DNA from: a virus | Reading direction: 5' to 3' (one strand) | DNA length: 21,208 nt | IMG/VR virus record: IMGVR_UViG_3300010354_011591 | Span: 1-21,208 of that record | Part shown: piece after piece, positions 5,316 through 20,681 of the stretch | How positions within the stretch are numbered: position 1 is the stretch's first letter | Layout of the letters: each line of letters opens with the position of its first letter | Notes under the pieces: generated by a model | Seen by the model: only the letters and a program-made list of their open reading frames with translations | Database searches by the model: none | Told to the model about the DNA's origin: nothing | Translations under genes and position numbers: made by a program

Positions 5316-7075
5316 TCCACATACGTGATCTCACAGTAAAGAACTTCATGAGCGTGGGCAATGCCACGCAGGCCATCAACTTTGATAGATCCGATCTTAC
5401 CCTTGTGCTAGGCGAAAACCTGGACCTGGGCGGTGATGGTTCCAGAAATGGCACAGGCAAGACCACCATAATCAATGCTCTTAGCTATGCCTTGTATGGT
5501 CAAGCTCTCAGCAACATCCGCAAGGACAATCTGGTCAACAAGACCAATGCCAAGAACATGCTGGTCAGCCTGGACTTTGCTGTGAGTGGTATCAACTATA
5601 GAATCGAGCGCGGACGTAAACCCAATGTGTTGCGATTCTATGTGAACGATGAGCAAAAAGCCGCTGAGGATGAAGCACAGGGCGACAGCCGCGAAACACA
5701 GGAAGCCATAGAGCGTATCCTGGGCATGAGCCACGACATGTTCAAACACATCCTGGCCCTGAACACCTACACAGAACCATTTCTCAATCTCAAAGCCAAC
5801 GATCAGCGTACCATAATCGAGCAGCTCTTGGGTATAACCCTGTTGAGCGAACGTGCTGACCGCATCAAAGAACTCAACAAGGCCACCAAGGACGGTATCA
5901 GCCAAGAGGAGTTTCGCATCCGGGCTGTGCAAGAAGCCAACACACGCATCGAGCAGCAGATCGTGAGCCTGCAACGTAGACAGACCATGTGGGTGACCAA
6001 ACATGCAGAAGAACTAGGACAGCTACAAACTGCCTTGGATCAGCTGACCAAGATAGACATCGACGCAGAGATCCTGGCACATCAGGCCTTGGAAGAACAC
6101 AATCGCGTGGCTACCCAACGCAACACCTTGACAGCTCGTCAGAAACGACTGGATCTAGATCTAGCCCGAGAGAACAAGAGCATAGACCGCATACGCAGTG
6201 AGATCACCAGCCTAGAAGATCACAAGTGCCACGCCTGTGGTCAAGACCTGCATGACACCAAACATCAAGAAGTGTTAGACAGCAAGAACGAGGCCCTGCG
6301 TGAAGCCCTAGAGACCGTGAACGAGCTGGAAGATCAGCTGGAGGATGTGGAATCAGAGTTGACCCAGTTGGGCGAACCTGGTGCTGTACCCACAGTGTTC
6401 TATGACAACAAGGACCTGGCCATTGATCATCGCAGTACACTGGCTGCCTTGCAAGGTCAGATTCTAGCCAAACAGGCCGAAACTGATCCCTATGGTGAAC
6501 AGATACTCGAGATGCAGGGGCAAGCTCTCCAGACAGTGACTTATGATGCATTGAATGATCTGACCCGACTGCAAGAGCATCAAGAGTTCTTGCTCAAGCT
6601 ACTGACCAGCAAGGATTCTTTTGTTCGCAAAAAGATCATTGATCAGAACTTGAGCTATCTCAATCAACGCCTCACACACTATCTGGATCGTATTGGCTTG
6701 CCGCACACTGTGAAGTTCCAGAATGATCTCACTGTGATGATCGAAGAGCTGGGTCGTGAGCTGGACTTTGACAACCTCAGTCGCGGTGAACGAGGCAGAC
6801 TGATCCTGAGCATGAGCTGGGCCTTCCGCGATGTGTGGGAGAGCCTGTATCAGCCCATCAACCTGTTGTTCATAGACGAGATGATCGACAACGGCCTTGA
6901 CACACAGGGTGTGGAGAATGCACTGGCCCTGCTCAAACGCATGAGCCGCGAGCGTCACAAGAGCATCTGGTTGGTGAGCCACAGAGATGAACTGGCAGGA
7001 CGTGTGGAAAACATCTTGAAAGTGATCAAAGAAAATGGTTTCACTTCCTACAGCACGGACGTGGACCTAGCATGA
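5312..7075 (+). CDS. 46: Recombination endonuclease subunit gp46 (Rad50/SbcC-like ATPase)
   Basis: A 587-residue SMC-type ATPase that partners gp47. The P-loop is SRNGTGKTT near residues 44-52, with Ser where the classical motif has Gly. Long coiled coils (about 180-300 and 315-450) flank a zinc hook, CHAC (C306, C309). The ABC signature LSRGERGRLILS starts near residue 489, Walker B is LLFIDE (D522, E523), and the switch histidine is in LVSHRDE (H557). Length is close to T4 gp46 (560). Its start overlaps the gp47 stop (ATGA) and its stop overlaps the next start in the same way, so at least four genes are coupled. The first continuation is not a replication gene but an SDR. Confidence 0.95.
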   Translation: MIHIRDLTVKNFMSVGNATQAINFDRSDLTLVLGENLDLGGDGSRNGTGKTTIINALSYALYGQALSNIRKDNLVNKTNAKNMLVSLDFAVSGINYRIERGRKPNVLRFYVNDEQKAAEDEAQGDSRETQEAIERILGMSHDMFKHILALNTYTEPFLNLKANDQRTIIEQLLGITLLSERADRIKELNKATKDGISQEEFRIRAVQEANTRIEQQIVSLQRRQTMWVTKHAEELGQLQTALDQLTKIDIDAEILAHQALEEHNRVATQRNTLTARQKRLDLDLARENKSIDRIRSEITSLEDHKCHACGQDLHDTKHQEVLDSKNEALREALETVNELEDQLEDVESELTQLGEPGAVPTVFYDNKDLAIDHRSTLAALQGQILAKQAETDPYGEQILEMQGQALQTVTYDALNDLTRLQEHQEFLLKLLTSKDSFVRKKIIDQNLSYLNQRLTHYLDRIGLPHTVKFQNDLTVMIEELGRELDFDNLSRGERGRLILSMSWAFRDVWESLYQPINLLFIDEMIDNGLDTQGVENALALLKRMSRERHKSIWLVSHRDELAGRVENILKVIKENGFTSYSTDVDLA

Positions 7076-7677
7076 GAATCGTGATCACCGGAGCCAATAG
7101 CGGCATCGGTCAAGGTCTTGTTGATAGATTGCAAAATCATTCAATCGTTGCGCTCACACGAAATCAGTTGGACCTATCCAACATCGATGAGGTATCGCGA
7201 TATGAATTGGCTCCGGCTGACATGTTAATCAATTGTGCTGGTACTGGCGTTGGGGGTAAAATTGATTTCGTTAATCATGTGGACCGGAATGTGGTTGACA
7301 TCTTGAATGTCAATTTGATCTCTCCTGTGTTGCTGACCAAGAAAGTATTGTGCAGCAACCCCGATTGCAAAATCGTGAATATCACCAGCACCAATAACAA
7401 TCGATATTGGCCAAATGATCTAGCCTATAGCCTGAGCAAATCGGCCTTGTCCGGCTTTGGTGAAATGTTGCGCGTTGAATATCCTAACGTACATTATCTA
7501 GAGATACGATTAGGTTTGGTCCAGACCAACTTCAATCACAATAGATATCGTGATCACAACCATAGATATTCTGACATATATTCCGGCAGGCCGTGTTTGA
7601 CAGTGGACCATGTGATTGATCGTATAACATCAGTGCTGTTTGATGCTACAATAAAATTTGTAGAGATCTCCCCATGA
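7072..7677 (+). CDS. Short-chain dehydrogenase/reductase (SDR)
   Basis: The product has 201 residues with a complete classical SDR layout: nucleotide-binding TGANSGIG at residues 6-13, NCAG at 54-57, a catalytic Ser near 106 (NITSTN), and YSLSK with Tyr119 and Lys123. It should be an NAD(P)-dependent oxidoreductase; the substrate cannot be read from sequence. It is shorter than the usual 240-260 residues, mainly through short loops and a reduced substrate-binding end. It overlaps gp46 upstream and the radical SAM gene downstream by ATGA, so it is expressed with the recombination operon and probably acts with the radical SAM protein. Base composition is visibly more AT-rich than gp46, which suggests later acquisition. 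Confidence 0.85.
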   Translation: MRIVITGANSGIGQGLVDRLQNHSIVALTRNQLDLSNIDEVSRYELAPADMLINCAGTGVGGKIDFVNHVDRNVVDILNVNLISPVLLTKKVLCSNPDCKIVNITSTNNNRYWPNDLAYSLSKSALSGFGEMLRVEYPNVHYLEIRLGLVQTNFNHNRYRDHNHRYSDIYSGRPCLTVDHVIDRITSVLFDATIKFVEISP

Positions 7678-8771
7678 AATATCCTTGGCAGTTATACCAT
7701 TGGCATTTTGAAGTCAGCGGCAAATGCACATTGAAATGTCCAAGATGTCCGCGTAACGACACTGCATCGGTGCCGTGGATGAACAAGGAATTAGATCTTG
7801 ACTTTTTTCAACGCACTTTGAGTCCTGACTTATTGAAAACCCAAGTCCGACGCATCACCATGTGTGGTGACATAGGTGATCCTATATATGCCAGTGAATA
7901 CATCGACATCATACGCTATATCAAACAACACAATCCCAAGATACATGTATACACCATCACCAATGGCAGCTACAGGAAAGAATCTTGGTGGAGAGAATTA
8001 GCCACAGTATCAAACGAGTACGACACCATCAATTTCAGCGTAGATGGGTATGACGCTGCCAGCAACAATCTATATCGTGTGGGCAGCGATTGGGATTCTA
8101 TCATGTCTGGCATGAAGATTATGTGTAAAGAAAGTTCTGCACATGTTTACTGGGCCATGATATTGTTTTCATTCAATCAGGATCATGTAGATCAGATCAA
8201 ACAACAGGCCCAGGAAATGGGCTGCGACGGTCTACAGATGACCTACAGCACAAAGTTTGGCAGCAAATATGGAGAGTCTTATGGCGGTTCAGATGATGTA
8301 CTTGAACCGCGGAAGGAATTTATCAGCAGCACACACCGGTACGAAAGATATTTTGTGCCCTTAGGCAACCGGCAACAACTCAATCACTCATATCTTGAAC
8401 ACAATCTCAATCAATACATCAAGATCAAACAAACCCATAACAAATTTATAACCCCCATGTGTTCCATTGGAAATCGCGGTTTGTATGTCAGCGCCGACGG
8501 AATATTGCACCCGTGCAGTTGGGTGAGCTATCCATACCAATCAATCGGTACTCCAAGGAAAACTATCAAATTCCACAACAGTTTCCATCAGAACTACAGA
8601 GAACAGCTGAATTTAAAAACACATTCTTTACAACAAGTATTAGATAATCCAGTGTGGGCAAAACTATTTGACACGTTTGATGATCCAGAAAAAGCCTGGG
8701 TAGAATGTGAGCAAAAATGTAATTGTGGATTAGTAGACGAGAATTATGCAGTTGGGTACCTTACCAACTAA
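7674..8771 (+). CDS. Radical SAM protein with C-terminal SPASM/Twitch-like cysteines
   Basis: The product has 365 residues. C18-x3-C22-x2-C25 (CTLKCPRC) is the radical SAM [4Fe-4S] motif. MCGDIGDP near residues 63-70 takes the place of the GGEP strand, and INFSVDG near 120 fits a barrel strand. A second cysteine set, C263 and C281 spanning a GNRG turn, then C345, C349 and C351, looks like an auxiliary cluster domain of the SPASM/Twitch type. Such enzymes modify peptides, sugars or other small molecules by radical chemistry; the substrate here is unknown. Coupling to the SDR by ATGA overlap suggests a two-step modification or biosynthesis. Composition is AT-richer than the core genes. The last residues lie inside an inverted repeat (8754-8792), so the natural C-terminus deserves checking. 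Confidence 0.88.
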   Translation: MKYPWQLYHWHFEVSGKCTLKCPRCPRNDTASVPWMNKELDLDFFQRTLSPDLLKTQVRRITMCGDIGDPIYASEYIDIIRYIKQHNPKIHVYTITNGSYRKESWWRELATVSNEYDTINFSVDGYDAASNNLYRVGSDWDSIMSGMKIMCKESSAHVYWAMILFSFNQDHVDQIKQQAQEMGCDGLQMTYSTKFGSKYGESYGGSDDVLEPRKEFISSTHRYERYFVPLGNRQQLNHSYLEHNLNQYIKIKQTHNKFITPMCSIGNRGLYVSADGILHPCSWVSYPYQSIGTPRKTIKFHNSFHQNYREQLNLKTHSLQQVLDNPVWAKLFDTFDDPEKAWVECEQKCNCGLVDENYAVGYLTN

Positions 8772-9231: not shown

Positions 9232-9640
9232 ATAGGCAGCAACAGACTCTGTGCCAGTCGTGGACTGGTCCCATTGAGGAACGGTGAGATACCCGGTCCG
9301 GATCTTGGGCGTCAAAGGTAATTGCTAACTACAGGCAACAAAGGATCAGGGCGCTGTGAAAAAGATACAACCCTGGCTCATAGGATTTGGGTCTATTCCG
9401 GATCACTAGGGTTCCGTTGATATGTGAAGCTTGGGTAGGGGGTACCGGTCAACCGCCTCCGCGAGGAAACTCAATCCCATTAGAATAGATGACTGGAGTC
9501 ACTCGGATGATGCCATTCAAATTCACCGTGCATACGGTGAATATTGACCAAAGTATCTGGATGATAGCCTTAGAAACAACGTTGATGAACGAAGTGAAAT
9601 CAACAGACTTGCGCAGCAAGTCTTTGGGAAGTCAGAGTAA
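9232..9640 (+). ncRNA. Apparently structured non-coding region behind the GIY-YIG gene (unidentified)
   Basis: About 400 nt with no confident gene, in an otherwise gene-packed window. Several perfect local hairpins are visible: CCAGTC/GACTGG (9254-9268, loop GTG), CAGGG with CCCTG around 9347-9375, GAG-GAAA-CTC near 9463-9472 (a GNRA-type loop), ATTCACCGT/ACGGTGAAT (9521-9542, loop GCAT) and AGACTTGC/GCAAGTCT (about 9605-9623). Position after a GIY-YIG gene makes a self-splicing intron core or its remnant the leading idea, with the 9521-9542 hairpin as a possible terminal P9-like element. I could not identify the paired conserved P7 or P3 segments, so the class is open. I do not see tRNA, tmRNA, RNase P or a known riboswitch signature. 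Confidence 0.35.
9548..9640 (+). pseudogene. Possible 3' exon or gene remnant
   Basis: From 9548 the frame reads PKYLDDSLRNNVDERSEINR and ends LAQQVFGKSE with a TAA at 9638-9640. This is charged, helix-like and protein-like in composition. The same frame is also open upstream from 9428 but interrupted by TGA at 9545-9547. Its stop overlaps the late box of the next gene; the stop of gp20 at 15302-15304 similarly abuts a late box. It has no start codon of its own, so it could be the last exon of an intron-split gene, the tail of a gene broken by insertion, or chance. Confidence 0.25.
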
Positions 9641-9648
9641 ATACTGTC
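9638..9648 (+). promoter_or_regulatory. T4-type late promoter, leaderless configuration (methyltransferase gene)
   Basis: GTAAATACTGTC runs straight into the ATG at 9649. TAAATA is at 9638-9643 and five bases separate it from the ATG. No ribosome binding site fits between them. Confidence 0.6.
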
Positions 9649-10221
9649 ATGCGAGCACAAGAAATCACAGAAGATAGTCCACTCACAGTACAAGGAAGTT
9701 TTACTCCTGACTTGCTGATCAGCAAGCTATGGCTATGGGAAGAACTTTCTCGAGTGCTTGATCAGTTAGATATCAATCATGTGAACGCCGTGTATGTGTT
9801 AGGCAGCTGGACTGGCGGCGTAAGCATGGTGTTAGCTGCCAAGCGATTCCCTGCTGATACTGTGATCAATGTGGATCGTGATCCTGATTGGATACGAGTC
9901 AGCCAAGACATAGCCAATCGCATGAACATTGATGATCGTACACAGCACATGATAGCCGATGTAAATGATCTAGATTATCGTCAAGCTGATCAACCTAGCG
10001 TGGTCATAAACACCAGTACCAATGACATTCGGGGAGATCAGTGGTTCCGAAACATACCCGCTGGCACCATAGTGGTTTTGCAAGGCCGTGATGCGATGAA
10101 TCCTAGCTTACAGGAGTTTGTGGCTGATTACCCCATGGATCAGATCATGTATAAAGGCCAGTTGGCGTTACAGGATCCCGAAACCCAGTATCATCGTTAC
10201 ATGGTCATAGGTATAGTTTAG
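9649..10221 (+). CDS. Putative SAM-dependent methyltransferase-like protein
   Basis: The product has 190 residues with a Rossmann-like pattern. A VYVLGSWTGGVSMVLA segment (about residues 48-63) takes the place of motif I. INVDRDPDWIRVSQDIAN follows, with acidic residues at the end of strand 2 that could bind the ribose of SAM. AELE-type later motifs are replaced by MIADVNDLDY, and VVINTSTND may be motif IV. The glycine loop is degenerate relative to classical GxGxG, so activity is not certain. It has its own late-type promoter, and its stop overlaps the convergent -1 frame ORF by four bases. Similar stand-alone Rossmann proteins are frequent in T4-like phages. The target (nucleic acid, protein or small molecule) is unknown. 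Confidence 0.62.
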   Translation: MRAQEITEDSPLTVQGSFTPDLLISKLWLWEELSRVLDQLDINHVNAVYVLGSWTGGVSMVLAAKRFPADTVINVDRDPDWIRVSQDIANRMNIDDRTQHMIADVNDLDYRQADQPSVVINTSTNDIRGDQWFRNIPAGTIVVLQGRDAMNPSLQEFVADYPMDQIMYKGQLALQDPETQYHRYMVIGIV

Positions 10222-10451
10222 AAGAAAGGCAGTCCAGTTTTCTTGGTGGTTTCCAAGTTATCTTTGACCAGATTGCTCACGGTGGTGCGTTCTGCGTAAC
10301 TCATCTGCATGGCTTCATCGTAAGTGACTCCACCACGCATGTACCAACACAGTTTTATGGTTTCAGTCCGGATGGTTTCTGCTTCCGCCTCCATGGCATC
10401 CACTAACTTGGTGATGCCCTCAGGGTCCAGGACTAGGAGGCGGTTTCGAAA
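10218..10451 (-). CDS. -1 frame extension of the gp26-like protein (frameshift product C-terminus)
   Basis: This reading frame gives 77 residues after the slip point: FRNRLLVLDPEGITKLVDAM, a glutamate-rich helix, CWYMRGGVTYDEAMQMSYAE, and an end in LETTKKTGLPFF. The strongly patterned CWYMRGG and MSYAER segments argue that it is a real protein part. It has no good start of its own: GTG at 10403 and ATG at 10394 lack well-placed ribosome binding sites, and the frame is open upstream through the slippery site. I therefore annotate it as the C-terminus of a 352-residue fusion with the first 275 residues of the gp26-like protein. Independent translation from GTG 10403 (61 residues) is the alternative. 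It converges on the methyltransferase gene with a four-base overlap. Confidence 0.72.
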   Translation of the reverse strand, partial: FRNRLLVLDPEGITKLVDAMEAEAETIRTETIKLCWYMRGGVTYDEAMQMSYAERTTVSNLVKDNLETTKKTGLPFF

Positions 10452-10457
10452 AAATTT
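10385..10457 (-). promoter_or_regulatory. Programmed -1 ribosomal frameshift signal
   Basis: On the minus strand the gp26-like frame reads TCA AAT TTT TTC, giving the canonical X XXY YYZ heptamer A-AAT-TTT at 10457-10451. Seven bases downstream, CCGCCTCC (10443-10436) pairs perfectly with GGAGGCGG (10392-10385). Within that hairpin, GGCATC (10418-10413) pairs with GATGCC (10400-10395). The slip moves ribosomes exactly into the frame of the 77-residue extension and past the zero-frame TAG at 10435-10433. Heptamer, 7 nt spacer, GC-rich stem and overlapping -1 ORF are all present. The arrangement next to a tape-measure gene parallels the lambda G/G-T tail assembly chaperones. Confidence 0.8.
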
Positions 10458-11275
10458 GACAGATCTAAAGTAAACGTCTGTTCATATTGATGTTGGCAGC
10501 TGGGGCAAGTGAGCTTGAGTGGTCGCACATCGGATTGTTCACGCAGCTCTACAGCACGATCACGTATGGCTTCAAACACTTCCTTGCGGCAGTTACGCAG
10601 GAACTCATCAATGAACTGGGGTTCGCTCACAATGGCATCTGCGGTTTTGATCATGGTGATGCTGTTGCGTATGCTGATCACTGTGAGCTCAGACACTTTT
10701 TTGTAGATTTCGGTCAGCAGACGCAGTTTTTCTTCTTCGTCTATTTCTGCGCTGTTCAAGCTCTGTATCATTTTCTGATCTTCAAACTGCACACGATTAT
10801 TTTCATTCAGCTGCTGATAGGTCATGGGTGTGAAGTAGATAGTGAGATCACCGCTCTGTAAAGGAGTCTCGTAGTCTCCAGATTTAAGACCATCCAGCAC
10901 TGTTCTTAGGTCCAAGCTGTACTCGTTTTCTTCGCTGCACTTGGGACATTTGGTTCCCATCTCCATGCTGTGACCGTAGCTGGCCAACCTGATGGCCACC
11001 AGCAAGGCTGTGATGTCTGATGCTGGTGTGGCCCAAGGATCATGTATGGCAGGCACGCAACTGCGTATGATATCTGTCACAGCCGATCCATTGAACAGAG
11101 CATCTGGGGTACGGCTGGTGATTTCGTCCACGGCGGTCATGGGGTAGATGGGTAGCTCGCCATTGGGTGGCATGCTGATTGCCTGGGCGGGCCAGTTACG
11201 TCCCCCGCTGGGCAAGCGTAAGTGGATCGCTGGCTGGCGGAAATACTTGCGCAAAGGATTGTCTAATGTGGCCAT
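10433..11275 (-). CDS. 26: gp26-like T4 baseplate protein (zero-frame product, zinc-finger-like)
   Basis: The zero-frame product has 280 residues. The N-terminal half, NPLRKYFRQPAIHLRLPSGG, then LPIYPMTAVDEITSRTPDAL and RSCVPAIHDPW, is the pattern I associate with T4-type baseplate (gp26-like) proteins. Two cysteine pairs, C110-x2-C113 (CPKC) and C257-x2-C260 (CPSC), could form one zinc site. A helical region lies between. It would act in baseplate hub formation or, given its frameshift and the neighbouring tape-measure gene, as a tail assembly chaperone. ATG at 11275 is preceded by GAGAGGT four bases away and by a minus-strand late-like box. The assignment to gp26 rather than another baseplate assembly protein such as gp51 is from memory of the family pattern. 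Confidence 0.78.
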   Translation of the reverse strand: MATLDNPLRKYFRQPAIHLRLPSGGRNWPAQAISMPPNGELPIYPMTAVDEITSRTPDALFNGSAVTDIIRSCVPAIHDPWATPASDITALLVAIRLASYGHSMEMGTKCPKCSEENEYSLDLRTVLDGLKSGDYETPLQSGDLTIYFTPMTYQQLNENNRVQFEDQKMIQSLNSAEIDEEEKLRLLTEIYKKVSELTVISIRNSITMIKTADAIVSEPQFIDEFLRNCRKEVFEAIRDRAVELREQSDVRPLKLTCPSCQHQYEQTFTLDLSNFFETAS

Positions 11276-11319: not shown

Positions 11320-13440
11320 ATGTCAGCAGAAACTGATCTACAATCCGCAGCCAACGCAGCCAGGAACTTTAGTGATGCAGCCAATGAAGCTGCTGACAAC
11401 ACCAAAAAGGCCGGCGACAAGCTAAAACAAACCCAAGACAACTTGTCCAACGAGCTGCGTTCGCAAGTGAGAGCGCTTGGCGCTCTAGGTGGCAGCCTGG
11501 CCCGGGGAACCAGCGATCTCCAGAGTTTCAACGGACAGCTAGAAATACTGAGCCTAGTGCTCAGCAAAGGTGCCACCGGACTGCAAAGATGGGGTCTGAG
11601 TCTCAGCGGCGTTGGTGGAAGGTTGGGAAGATTTGGTCAGGCTCTGGGTGTGGGCGGTCGAACACTTGATGTATTCAACAAAGCCACGCTGGCCAGCGCC
11701 AAGTATCTAACAGAACGTCTCAATGCCAGCTACAAGGTATTTCAACAGTTTGGCTCAGTTGGTGCATTGGGTGCGCAAGGCATTGAAGGTCTGATTGATC
11801 AGTCGTTGCAGAGCAAGCTGGGTCTGGAAGCATTTGGCAAAGTGGTCATGGACAACAGCCAGACTTTGGCTGCGTTTGGTGGTACTGCTTTCCAAGGCGC
11901 AGAACGATTCTCGCAGCTGGTATCAGATCTAACTGATCCAGCCAAGACAGCCGGTGATGAGCTGCGCAATCTTGGCCTCAAAGGCGAAGACATAGCCCAA
12001 TGGGCCGCTACCTACATAGCCAGCGAACAGCGCATGGGTCGGGCTCGAGCTACCACAGCAGAGCAACTCACAGCTGGTACCATAGCCTATGTCAAGCAGC
12101 TGGATGAACTGTCAAGGCTCACAGGCGAAAGCAAAGAAAACCTAGAAAAGCAGCGTCAAGCAGCAGAAACTGATCAGCAGTACAGGGCCACTCTGTACAA
12201 GTTGGAGATGCAAGGTCGCAAAGAAGACGCTGATAGATTGAGACAGACCATTGGTGCTATTGGCAAAGTGTATGGCCCTGAGATGCAGCAGGCCGCAATG
12301 GCAGCAGCCAGCGGCATGATCACCAATGAAAAAGCTGCCGCCGCTAGTGCTAGCACCATGGGCCAGTTCACAGGTATCATCACGGATGTGATCAACAATG
12401 GTCAAGGCATGACTTCCACTTTGCAGAGATTGCAAGGTGCCATTGAGCCCAGCATGGGAACCATAGCCGACTTCGCACAGGCCACTCATAATGCCAGCGG
12501 CACATTCATCAACTTTGCTGAGTTGGCCCAAGGTCAAGCACATGCTCTCAACCAGCTCACACCAGATGCTATACGATTTGAACAAGATGGCGCAGCAAAA
12601 ACTCAAAACAAGTTGACTTTACAGACTCAAGACGCTATCAAAGTCATGCAAGAAACCACTATCGAGTTGACCAAACTGACCAAGCAAGCACTGCCTGCTG
12701 CATCTACAGCAGTTTCACTGCTGGCTACTGCTAGCTTGGGTGCAGCCAAAGCCATGAATGCTGTGTTCAATGCAGTGTTTGGAGGTGGAGGTGGAGGTGC
12801 AGGTTCAGCCGGAGCTGCCAACGCACCTGGACCAAACACCACTCCTGGTGGTGCGGCCACGGGCATGGTTCCTGGTGGTGGGCAGCTTCAACCTAGACCC
12901 AGACTAGGACCCGATGCATTGCAACAACTGAATGTGCGCAGCCGAGGAGAACTTGGTCAGTATGATCCACGACTGATTGATTTGGCTAGAAAGTTACAGG
13001 ACATGTACCCAGGTGTTACATTCACTGGTATCAATGATAGATTTGAAGGGTCTCATGGACGAGGAGAGGCTCTGGATTTTACCCTGCCGGGCATGACAGT
13101 GGGTGATGTAGAACAAGGCAGAAGTATGGTGGAATCTCTAAGGAACATGGGATTTGGTTTTGCTTTGGATGAATACAACAATCCCAGTCCTAGAGCCACA
13201 GGACCGCATTTCCACGCACAACTGGCCACTGGTGGTGTGGTGAGTGGACCCAAAGGCGGCTATAACGCCATGCTGCATGGCACAGAAGCAGTGGTACCCT
13301 TACCAGATGGACGTAGCATTCCTGTGCAAAATGCTGATTCTGGCAACTTTGAACTGCAACTGGATCGCTTGGATACCATAATCAGTGTCATGCGCGATCA
13401 AGTGCAGGCCACACAAAAACTTCTGGCCTATGCTACCTAA
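11320..13440 (+). CDS. Tape-measure-like tail protein with M15-type peptidase motif
   Basis: The product has 706 residues. The N-terminal 450 are Ala/Gln/Lys-rich helices with coiled-coil character (for example ATTAEQLTAGTIAYVKQLDE), followed by hydrophobic Ala-rich helices near 460-480 and a Gly/Pro linker (about 485-530). Residues 545-640 contain SHGRGEALD (H579, D586) and GPHFH (H630, H632), the H-x2-G-x-A-x-D plus H-x-H zinc site of M15-like peptidoglycan peptidases. The C-terminus has TGGVVSGPKGGYNAMLHGTE and AVVPLPDGRS, a signature common at the end of tape measure proteins. Role: setting tail length and probably opening the cell wall at DNA entry. It lies immediately upstream of the portal gene and opposite the frameshifting gp26-like gene. 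It is short for a tape measure but close to T4 gp29 (590). Confidence 0.75.
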   Translation: MSAETDLQSAANAARNFSDAANEAADNTKKAGDKLKQTQDNLSNELRSQVRALGALGGSLARGTSDLQSFNGQLEILSLVLSKGATGLQRWGLSLSGVGGRLGRFGQALGVGGRTLDVFNKATLASAKYLTERLNASYKVFQQFGSVGALGAQGIEGLIDQSLQSKLGLEAFGKVVMDNSQTLAAFGGTAFQGAERFSQLVSDLTDPAKTAGDELRNLGLKGEDIAQWAATYIASEQRMGRARATTAEQLTAGTIAYVKQLDELSRLTGESKENLEKQRQAAETDQQYRATLYKLEMQGRKEDADRLRQTIGAIGKVYGPEMQQAAMAAASGMITNEKAAAASASTMGQFTGIITDVINNGQGMTSTLQRLQGAIEPSMGTIADFAQATHNASGTFINFAELAQGQAHALNQLTPDAIRFEQDGAAKTQNKLTLQTQDAIKVMQETTIELTKLTKQALPAASTAVSLLATASLGAAKAMNAVFNAVFGGGGGGAGSAGAANAPGPNTTPGGAATGMVPGGGQLQPRPRLGPDALQQLNVRSRGELGQYDPRLIDLARKLQDMYPGVTFTGINDRFEGSHGRGEALDFTLPGMTVGDVEQGRSMVESLRNMGFGFALDEYNNPSPRATGPHFHAQLATGGVVSGPKGGYNAMLHGTEAVVPLPDGRSIPVQNADSGNFELQLDRLDTIISVMRDQVQATQKLLAYAT

Positions 13441-19811: not shown

Positions 19812-20681
19812 ATGAAAATTTTTCGCCATTCTCCCAAAGACATATATCCTGTGATGTACACTTTGATGGTAGGAATCCTACCATTTATCATAGTCATCAT
19901 GGATCTTGATTTGATAGCCTGGATTCTCATGCTGCCGTTGCACGCTTGGTTGATCGTGAATGCACAGAATTCTTCATTGCATCACAATGCTCATTGGAAA
20001 ACATTTACTAATCGTTGGGTAGGAATGATTTATGATCTGTGTGCAAGTGCAGCTTCTAACATTTGCAACGCTGCTTATAGACAGAGTCATTTGTTACATC
20101 ATATACATGTCAATGACAAACCAGTGAATGGAGTATGCAAAGATCCATTATCGGTGTTTGCTCAAAGCAAAAACGGCGAACCAGAAAATTTTTGGATACA
20201 TTGTACCACCCACGCCTGGAAAGCAGTAGTGACCACATTTTCAGCAATATTGTTACCTATTCATCAATGCAAGACTGTAGATGGGCCGCAACTTAGACGA
20301 GAGAGATGTACCATATTTCTGTATACGCTGGCCATAATATGCTGTGATGTATGGTATGGATTATGGTATTCTTTGGTTATACTCTATGTGGCCAATTTCA
20401 TGAACCGTGCTACCAGTTACGGCGAACATTGGCAGGTCTTGGATCGTCGTGGAGACACCACTCAAGACAGCATCGGAATCTACAGTCGTTGGTACAATAT
20501 CATTGGGTTTGGTGCAGGATATCACCAAGAACATCATCACAAACCTGGTGTGCATTGGACTAGATTACACGAAGTGACTCCGCTATTGCATCCAGATAGG
20601 AAAATACTAGGCGGTATGCACATGACCAACTGCCCGTTCTGGCAGCACTTCAAAGATTTATTTGTGGCTAAATCTAGCTAG
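19812..20681 (+). CDS. Fatty acid desaturase/hydroxylase-like membrane enzyme
   Basis: The product has 289 residues with the three histidine boxes of membrane di-iron desaturases/hydroxylases: HHNAH (H57-H61), SHLLHHIH (H93, H96, H97, H99) and HQEHHH (H238, H241, H242). Hydrophobic segments at about 13-30, 34-50, 140-165 and 170-200 fit a helical membrane core. It should introduce double bonds or hydroxyl groups into lipid acyl chains or a related substrate in the host membrane, using O2 and host electron carriers. A late-type promoter puts it under phage control during virion production. The gene is more AT-rich than the head genes, which suggests acquisition. Its last eight bases overlap the convergent glycosyltransferase gene. 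A beta-carotene hydroxylase-like activity cannot be excluded. Confidence 0.85.
   Translation: MKIFRHSPKDIYPVMYTLMVGILPFIIVIMDLDLIAWILMLPLHAWLIVNAQNSSLHHNAHWKTFTNRWVGMIYDLCASAASNICNAAYRQSHLLHHIHVNDKPVNGVCKDPLSVFAQSKNGEPENFWIHCTTHAWKAVVTTFSAILLPIHQCKTVDGPQLRRERCTIFLYTLAIICCDVWYGLWYSLVILYVANFMNRATSYGEHWQVLDRRGDTTQDSIGIYSRWYNIIGFGAGYHQEHHHKPGVHWTRLHEVTPLLHPDRKILGGMHMTNCPFWQHFKDLFVAKSS

Follow-up and report, generated by a model that had tools for sequence, protein, structure and literature searches.

Frameshifted tail assembly chaperones were reportedly treated by Xu, Hendrix and Duda in 2004, and the tail assembly chaperones of T4-like phages were reportedly identified by Vladimirov, Gautam and Davidson in 2022. 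In lambda, gpG and gpG-T are made by −1 frameshifting, as are other tail assembly chaperones, and the tail-chaperone frameshift is described as conserved "except T4" (reviewed in PMC5009743). The T4 proteins gp26 and gp51 are listed as hub assembly chaperones (PMC3004832). According to the passage of the PRFect paper on the 2022 work, some T4-like phages have two chaperone genes, a short one and a long (fusion) one (PMC10885494), and the paper on phage Adele, where it cites the same work, credits it with poly-T slip sites in the chaperone genes of T4-like phages (PMC12846349), so part of the finding reported here may already be described. The Vandenendeviridae/Andersonviridae chaperone with its GTTTTT −1 site (phage Adele, PMC12846349) is like our locus in its T-rich slip and in an extension that was formerly annotated as a separate gene, but it belongs to another phage lineage. 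The original prediction for our locus knew of no described precedent at this gene in T4-like phages, and this did not survive the hub-chaperone listing just mentioned and the partial accounts of the 2022 work. As far as those accounts go, it is already published that gp26/gp51 are chaperones, and the locus analysed here adds a well-supported member.

The window is the entire 21,208-base IMG/VR virus record IMGVR_UViG_3300010354_011591 from an uncultured virus. Because it encodes a T4-type portal protein (PF07230), prohead protease (PF03420) and major capsid protein gp23 (PF07068), together with late sigma factor and SbcD-like genes, it was taken to be part of the genome of a myovirus of the T4 superfamily. 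Several close relatives (L114, L116, L135, L163 and L170) are carried by contigs of approximately 337–347 kb. The Rfam search of the window gave no matches, also none for about 400 bases without a convincing gene (9232–9648) that lie between SegE-type GIY-YIG endonuclease and methyltransferase-like genes, and no tRNAs were found in the window. Host-like metabolic genes for a short-chain dehydrogenase, a radical SAM/SPASM protein and a fatty acid desaturase are present at 7072–8771 and 19812–20681.

The gene under study is an open reading frame on the minus strand (10433–11275) that encodes a gp26-like protein of 280 residues (the short product, TAC-N) and is closed in the zero frame by a TAG stop at 10435–10433. 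The protein matched PF12322 (T4_baseplate) with an E-value of 2.6e-18 and 67 bits against a cut-off of 24.5, and phrog_150 ("baseplate hub") with an E-value of 3.2e-19, which bears out its earlier assignment to a T4-type gp26-like baseplate gene. The AlphaFold2 (AF2) model of the 280-residue form reached a pLDDT of 87.9, and its top match in BFVD, among predicted structures only, was "Baseplate hub assembly protein, bacteriophage T4-like" (E 1.8e-25, TM 0.90). The PDB gave no significant match by Foldseek with the TAC-N model or by sequence, solved tail assembly chaperones included, a result still compatible with a tail-chaperone fold. We propose, with a probability of roughly 92%, that this gene provides a RaK2-like jumbo phage of the T4 superfamily with its tail assembly chaperone and that a −1 slip on the heptamer T_TTT_TTC would yield a minor form of 352 residues.

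The trait that defines lambda G/G-T, a short and a long product with a common N-terminus, is found here at the sequence level. The window differs from lambda gpG/gpG-T in having a PF12322 protein with paired Cys motifs and the slip site T_TTT_TTC, and its neighbouring gene is divergent, not downstream. This neighbour (11320–13440, plus strand) encodes 706 residues and belongs to phrog_14121 (E 2.6e-5), the same family as the protein encoded next to the gp26-like gene in RaK2, 121Q and GAP32. Direct matches to tape-measure families were weak, with E-values of 0.5 for the window neighbour (phrog_1535) and 0.028 for the GAP32 homologue (phrog_167), so the divergent position of the supposed tape-measure-like gene stands but its identity as a probable tape-measure protein is only weakly suggested by sequence.

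The zero frame of the gp26-like gene ends in ...TCA AAT TTT TTC GAA ACC GCC TCC TAG. The −1 frame continues from the slip site (10218–10448, minus strand) for 76 codons plus a stop, beginning RNRLLVLDPEG..., and in-silico fusion of the two frames gives the putative long product of 352 residues (TAC-NC; 10218–11275, minus strand). A scan of IMG/VR with the window subfamily returned at least 80 loci, which together with the window and three earlier loci made up a family of 84 sequences. The original prediction had proposed that the heptamer site and the −1 frame be looked for in related phages, and both turned out to be conserved: among the matches listed, T_TTT_TTC was present in 84/84 loci, and the −1 ORF was exactly 76 codons long in all 82 complete members. 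Nucleotide diversity at −1 codon positions 1, 2 and 3 past the overlap was 0.338, 0.206 and 0.571, a pattern that, at the level of sequence, shows the −1 frame to be under purifying selection and agrees with the protein-like pattern seen in it before. A search with the fused protein gave similarity that continues across the change from zero to −1 frame in Phosso, Atu_ph07 and XacN1, and in Phosso and Atu_ph07 the alignment covered 99–100% of the fused protein's own length across the two frames.

The same arrangement, with a −1 ORF that opens right at the slip site and mostly reads FFR..LL, was found in all 16 named jumbo phages (Atu_ph07, Phosso, XacN1, 121Q, Munch, Hallingskeid, Paride, PA5oct, Vibrio 2.275.O, CBB, SCTP-2, RaK2, GAP32, XaC1, BF and CM1), while the distance from the slip site to the zero-frame stop varied from 3 to 33 nt. 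Fourteen of the 16 have T_TTT_TTC and two (XacN1 and CM1) have T_TTT_TTT. RaK2-like jumbo phages (RaK2, 121Q, GAP32, CBB, PA5oct and Atu_ph07) share the gene, the slip and the −1 ORF with the window, but their N-terminal part is 25–35% identical to that of the window, and their records give separate genes or only the first. The window comes from the record of an uncultured virus, for which an assembly error or a decayed gene could be thought of as the source of the frame break; the same frame relation in the 16 named phages and in more than 160 other loci makes this practically negligible, and both sequencing error and a pseudogene were rejected.

The slip site was also found in cyanophages (Kyanoviridae), e.g. 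S-IOM18, which have a gp26 gene followed by a short "gp51" ORF. A scan of IMG/VR with the S-IOM18 protein gave the identical T_TTT_TTC and the same architecture in 80/80 cyanophage-type loci; they differ in that the stop follows 3 nt past the heptamer and in that no conserved downstream stem was detected. The slip site is thus co-located in every jumbo phage and cyanophage relative examined, and the hosts of these phages are diverse (Agrobacterium, Klebsiella, Vibrio, Pseudomonas, Xanthomonas and cyanobacteria). T_TTT_TTY occurred in all 15 jumbo-isolate genes tested, for which the naive probability expected from codon usage, ignoring relatedness, is about 1e-7. The heptamer and the −1 ORF are clearly beyond chance.

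The window has two overlapping heptamers, T_TTT_TTC (10448–10454, minus strand) and A_AAT_TTT (10451–10457, minus strand), which are both canonical X_XXY_YYZ sites in the phase of the zero frame, and a slip on either would give the same junction residues, NFFRNR. The original prediction had named A_AAT_TTT, and this heptamer is indeed present and in phase, with the zero-frame stop 15 nt past it as described (12 nt past T_TTT_TTC) and with the expected 7-nt spacer to the downstream stem (4 nt from T_TTT_TTC). However, the codon ahead of TTT_TTC among the 84 family members listed was AGT in 43, AAT in 36, CGT in three and GAT in two, which means that A_AAT_TTT is possible in only 36 of them and is not the conserved element. 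We therefore consider it unlikely, in spite of its canonical form and good spacing, that the frameshift is real but takes place on A_AAT_TTT, since T_TTT_TTC is universal among the same sequences; both heptamers could contribute in the window.

The downstream ORF could also be read as an independent small protein that has a start codon of its own, or as the product of reinitiation at the stop of the gp26-like gene. Existing records do annotate a separate hypothetical protein, and in 121Q, Atu_ph07, Phosso and L002 an ATG lies one or two codons past the junction, overlapping or adjoining the stop, so reinitiation is conceivable in these four, but it is not general. In most relatives the conserved part already sets in at the slip site, before any start codon, and in RaK2, PA5oct and Paride no ATG, GTG or TTG was found in the −1 frame after its preceding stop up to and including the 30th codon beyond the junction. 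The first ATG, GTG or TTG after the upstream stop in the −1 frame of the window lies 15 codons past the junction, in agreement with the earlier claim that this frame has no good start of its own; this holds for the window and for most, not all, of its relatives. Initiation at the first available starts, GTG 10403 and ATG 10394, would lose the conserved first 15–18 residues, and a separate gene would leave the invariant slippery run unexplained. The separate-protein and reinitiation readings are thus highly improbable, and a fusion by −1 frameshifting is preferred. The records of the named phages contain two separate genes or only the first gene (CM1 is unannotated), none of them carries a frameshift annotation, and the literature checked on three of the named phages or groups contains no mention of a frameshift.

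A stem downstream of the slip site was the other part of the predicted signal. The minimum-energy fold of the window does contain the 8-bp GC-rich stem, formed by the 5' arm CCGCCTCC (10436–10443, minus strand) and the 3' arm GGAGGCGG (10385–10392, minus strand), together with an inner hairpin, but the 3' arm is not conserved in place and belongs to this sequence only, and the nearest relatives lack a stem. The stem of the window taken alone was marginal (P = 0.048 against synonymous-codon shuffles). When the exact stem columns were examined across the family, all eight pairs formed only in the window among the matches listed, and RNAalifold, run on the family alignment without gaps, gave no common structure, which is explained by the shifting 3' arm.

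When the 3' arm was allowed to move, a stem of at least 7 bp starting 3–9 nt past T_TTT_TTC was found in 75% of the unique family sequences among the matches listed. The 5' arm in the family is mostly GCCTCCT or GCCTCTT, and the 3' arm lies mainly at positions 67–73 or 88–94 relative to the heptamer, further downstream than in the window. The mean family stem score was 18.4 versus 10.8 for synonymous shuffles (among the matches listed), and a score of 18.3 compared with a maximum of 16.3 when the 5' arms were swapped between sequences. Only 17% of the sequences listed reached P ≤ 0.05 against their own synonymous shuffles with a wider loop range, so the evidence for the stem is collective. Covariation between the C/T of the 5' arm and the G/A of the 3' arm gave T-A 13, T-G 0, C-G 32 and C-A 7, counts whose P value ignores shared ancestry, and at least 12 changes of the 5'-arm C/T were placed on the tree; the 5' arm is also doubly constrained by coding (RLL) in two reading frames. 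The complementarity proposed as a check was therefore recovered as the same 5' arm with compensatory changes in most of the wider family, but not as the exact pairs of the window. The close relatives L107, L110 and L119 had no stem of at least 5 bp in the tested position, and none was conserved in the cyanophages, so on this comparison the stem is a probable but not universal stimulator of frameshifting. The arms CCTCCT and AGGAGG (L107–L186; heptamer-relative positions 13–19, and 67–73 or 88–94) resemble anti-Shine-Dalgarno and Shine-Dalgarno sequences, and the stem arms may contact the ribosome; the covariation seen in the CTCTT/AAGAG variants speaks for pairing of the arms with each other.

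The stem also bears on whether the slip is made by the ribosome or by RNA polymerase. Transcriptional slippage sites are usually longer than the run found here. If RNA polymerase added an extra U at the six-T run (seven in XacN1 and CM1), the one added base would give the same fusion, but T6 followed by C is codon-phased and is kept in nearly all relatives, and the recurrent covarying downstream stems fit a ribosomal signal better; transcriptional slippage is for these reasons very unlikely, and we keep to slippage by the ribosome.

T4 itself was connected to this gene family by both parts of the fusion. T4 gp26 and gp51 belong to the same family (PF12322/phrog_150). The PF12322 match ends at the junction in all four proteins: at residue 277 in the window protein and 206 of 208 in gp26, while it covers residues 1–201 of 249 in gp51 and 9–236 of 299 in the cyanophage fusion. 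In the alignment, T4 gp26 (208 residues) stops at the junction and gp51 runs on. The profile of the −1 ORF matched a profile of four gp51 C-termini with an E-value of 7.4e-6 over 30 columns (hhalign), and gp51 matched the cyanophage −1 ORF profile with an E-value of 3.4e-5, whereas the match of the −1 ORF to the single T4 gp51 C-terminus reached only 0.011 (hhalign) and the direct comparison of window-type and cyanophage −1 ORFs was not significant. Because gp26 ends at the junction and the C-terminal extension of gp51 matches the −1 ORF as a homologue, gp26 and gp51 correspond to the short and long products; judged from these alignments, the same pair is encoded in T4 by two paralogues, of which gp26 is the short and gp51 the long one. 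The two T4 genes are separate and divergently oriented, whereas the window has one gene with a frameshift signal. This two-gene correspondence agrees with the PRFect paper's summary of the 2022 work, as far as that summary goes.

Other arrangements of these genes were also seen. Klebsiella phage CP-p-KP-21068 (L188, 2501–3792) has gp51-like and gp26-like genes that follow one another on the same strand, whereas those of T4 diverge. The "baseplate hub assembly catalyst" (gp51) of S-IOM18 (L022, 3738–3875) is the −1 tail of gp26 and not a full-length gp51 gene. In distant PF12322 relatives from phages of Gram-positive hosts, SP-15 (L023, 2974–3913), SagM-GXN1 (L024, from 2980) and BRock (L026, 2788–3871), the downstream ORF lies in frame +1 (or −2) and not in frame −1, which suggests a different recoding event.

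The original prediction of a 280-residue protein and a 352-residue fusion as the T4-type equivalent of G/G-T fits all the comparative data, in which the sequence signals, their conservation, the selection on −1 coding and the homology of both parts to gp26/gp51 are direct observations. The mechanism that we infer from them comprises the slippage and its rate, the ribosome as its agent, the role of the stem and the function as a chaperone. Most ribosomes would stop at the TAG and release the short form. A minority would slip by −1 on T_TTT_TTC, where tRNA-Phe would re-pair from TTT-TTC to TTT-TTT; these ribosomes would pass the stop and extend the chain by 76 residues read in the −1 frame, and in the window ribosomal pausing may be assisted by the downstream stem. 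If lambda gpG/gpG-T is taken as the model, the tape-measure protein would be coated by many copies of the short form and few of the long one, whose C-terminal extension would recruit the tail-tube subunits. The CBB homologue (gp250) is annotated as a "structural protein", and if that annotation comes from virion mass spectrometry, it would not fit a pure chaperone. We suggest only tentatively, and with some doubt, that the T_TTT_TTC frameshifted chaperone gene is ancestral in much of the T4 superfamily, that T4 gp26/gp51 split later, and that the stem roved in the jumbo lineage, where the 5' arm would have stayed fixed right after the slip site and the 3' arm would have moved among at least three −1-coding positions.

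The natural variants of the slip site and of the stem form a set that can be easily assayed. The finding also provides a testable function for many small "hypothetical" or "gp51-like" ORFs that are now annotated as separate genes. T4 is the textbook exception to the tail-chaperone frameshift, and the −1 site in its jumbo phage and cyanophage relatives, together with the match to gp51, removes much of this exception.
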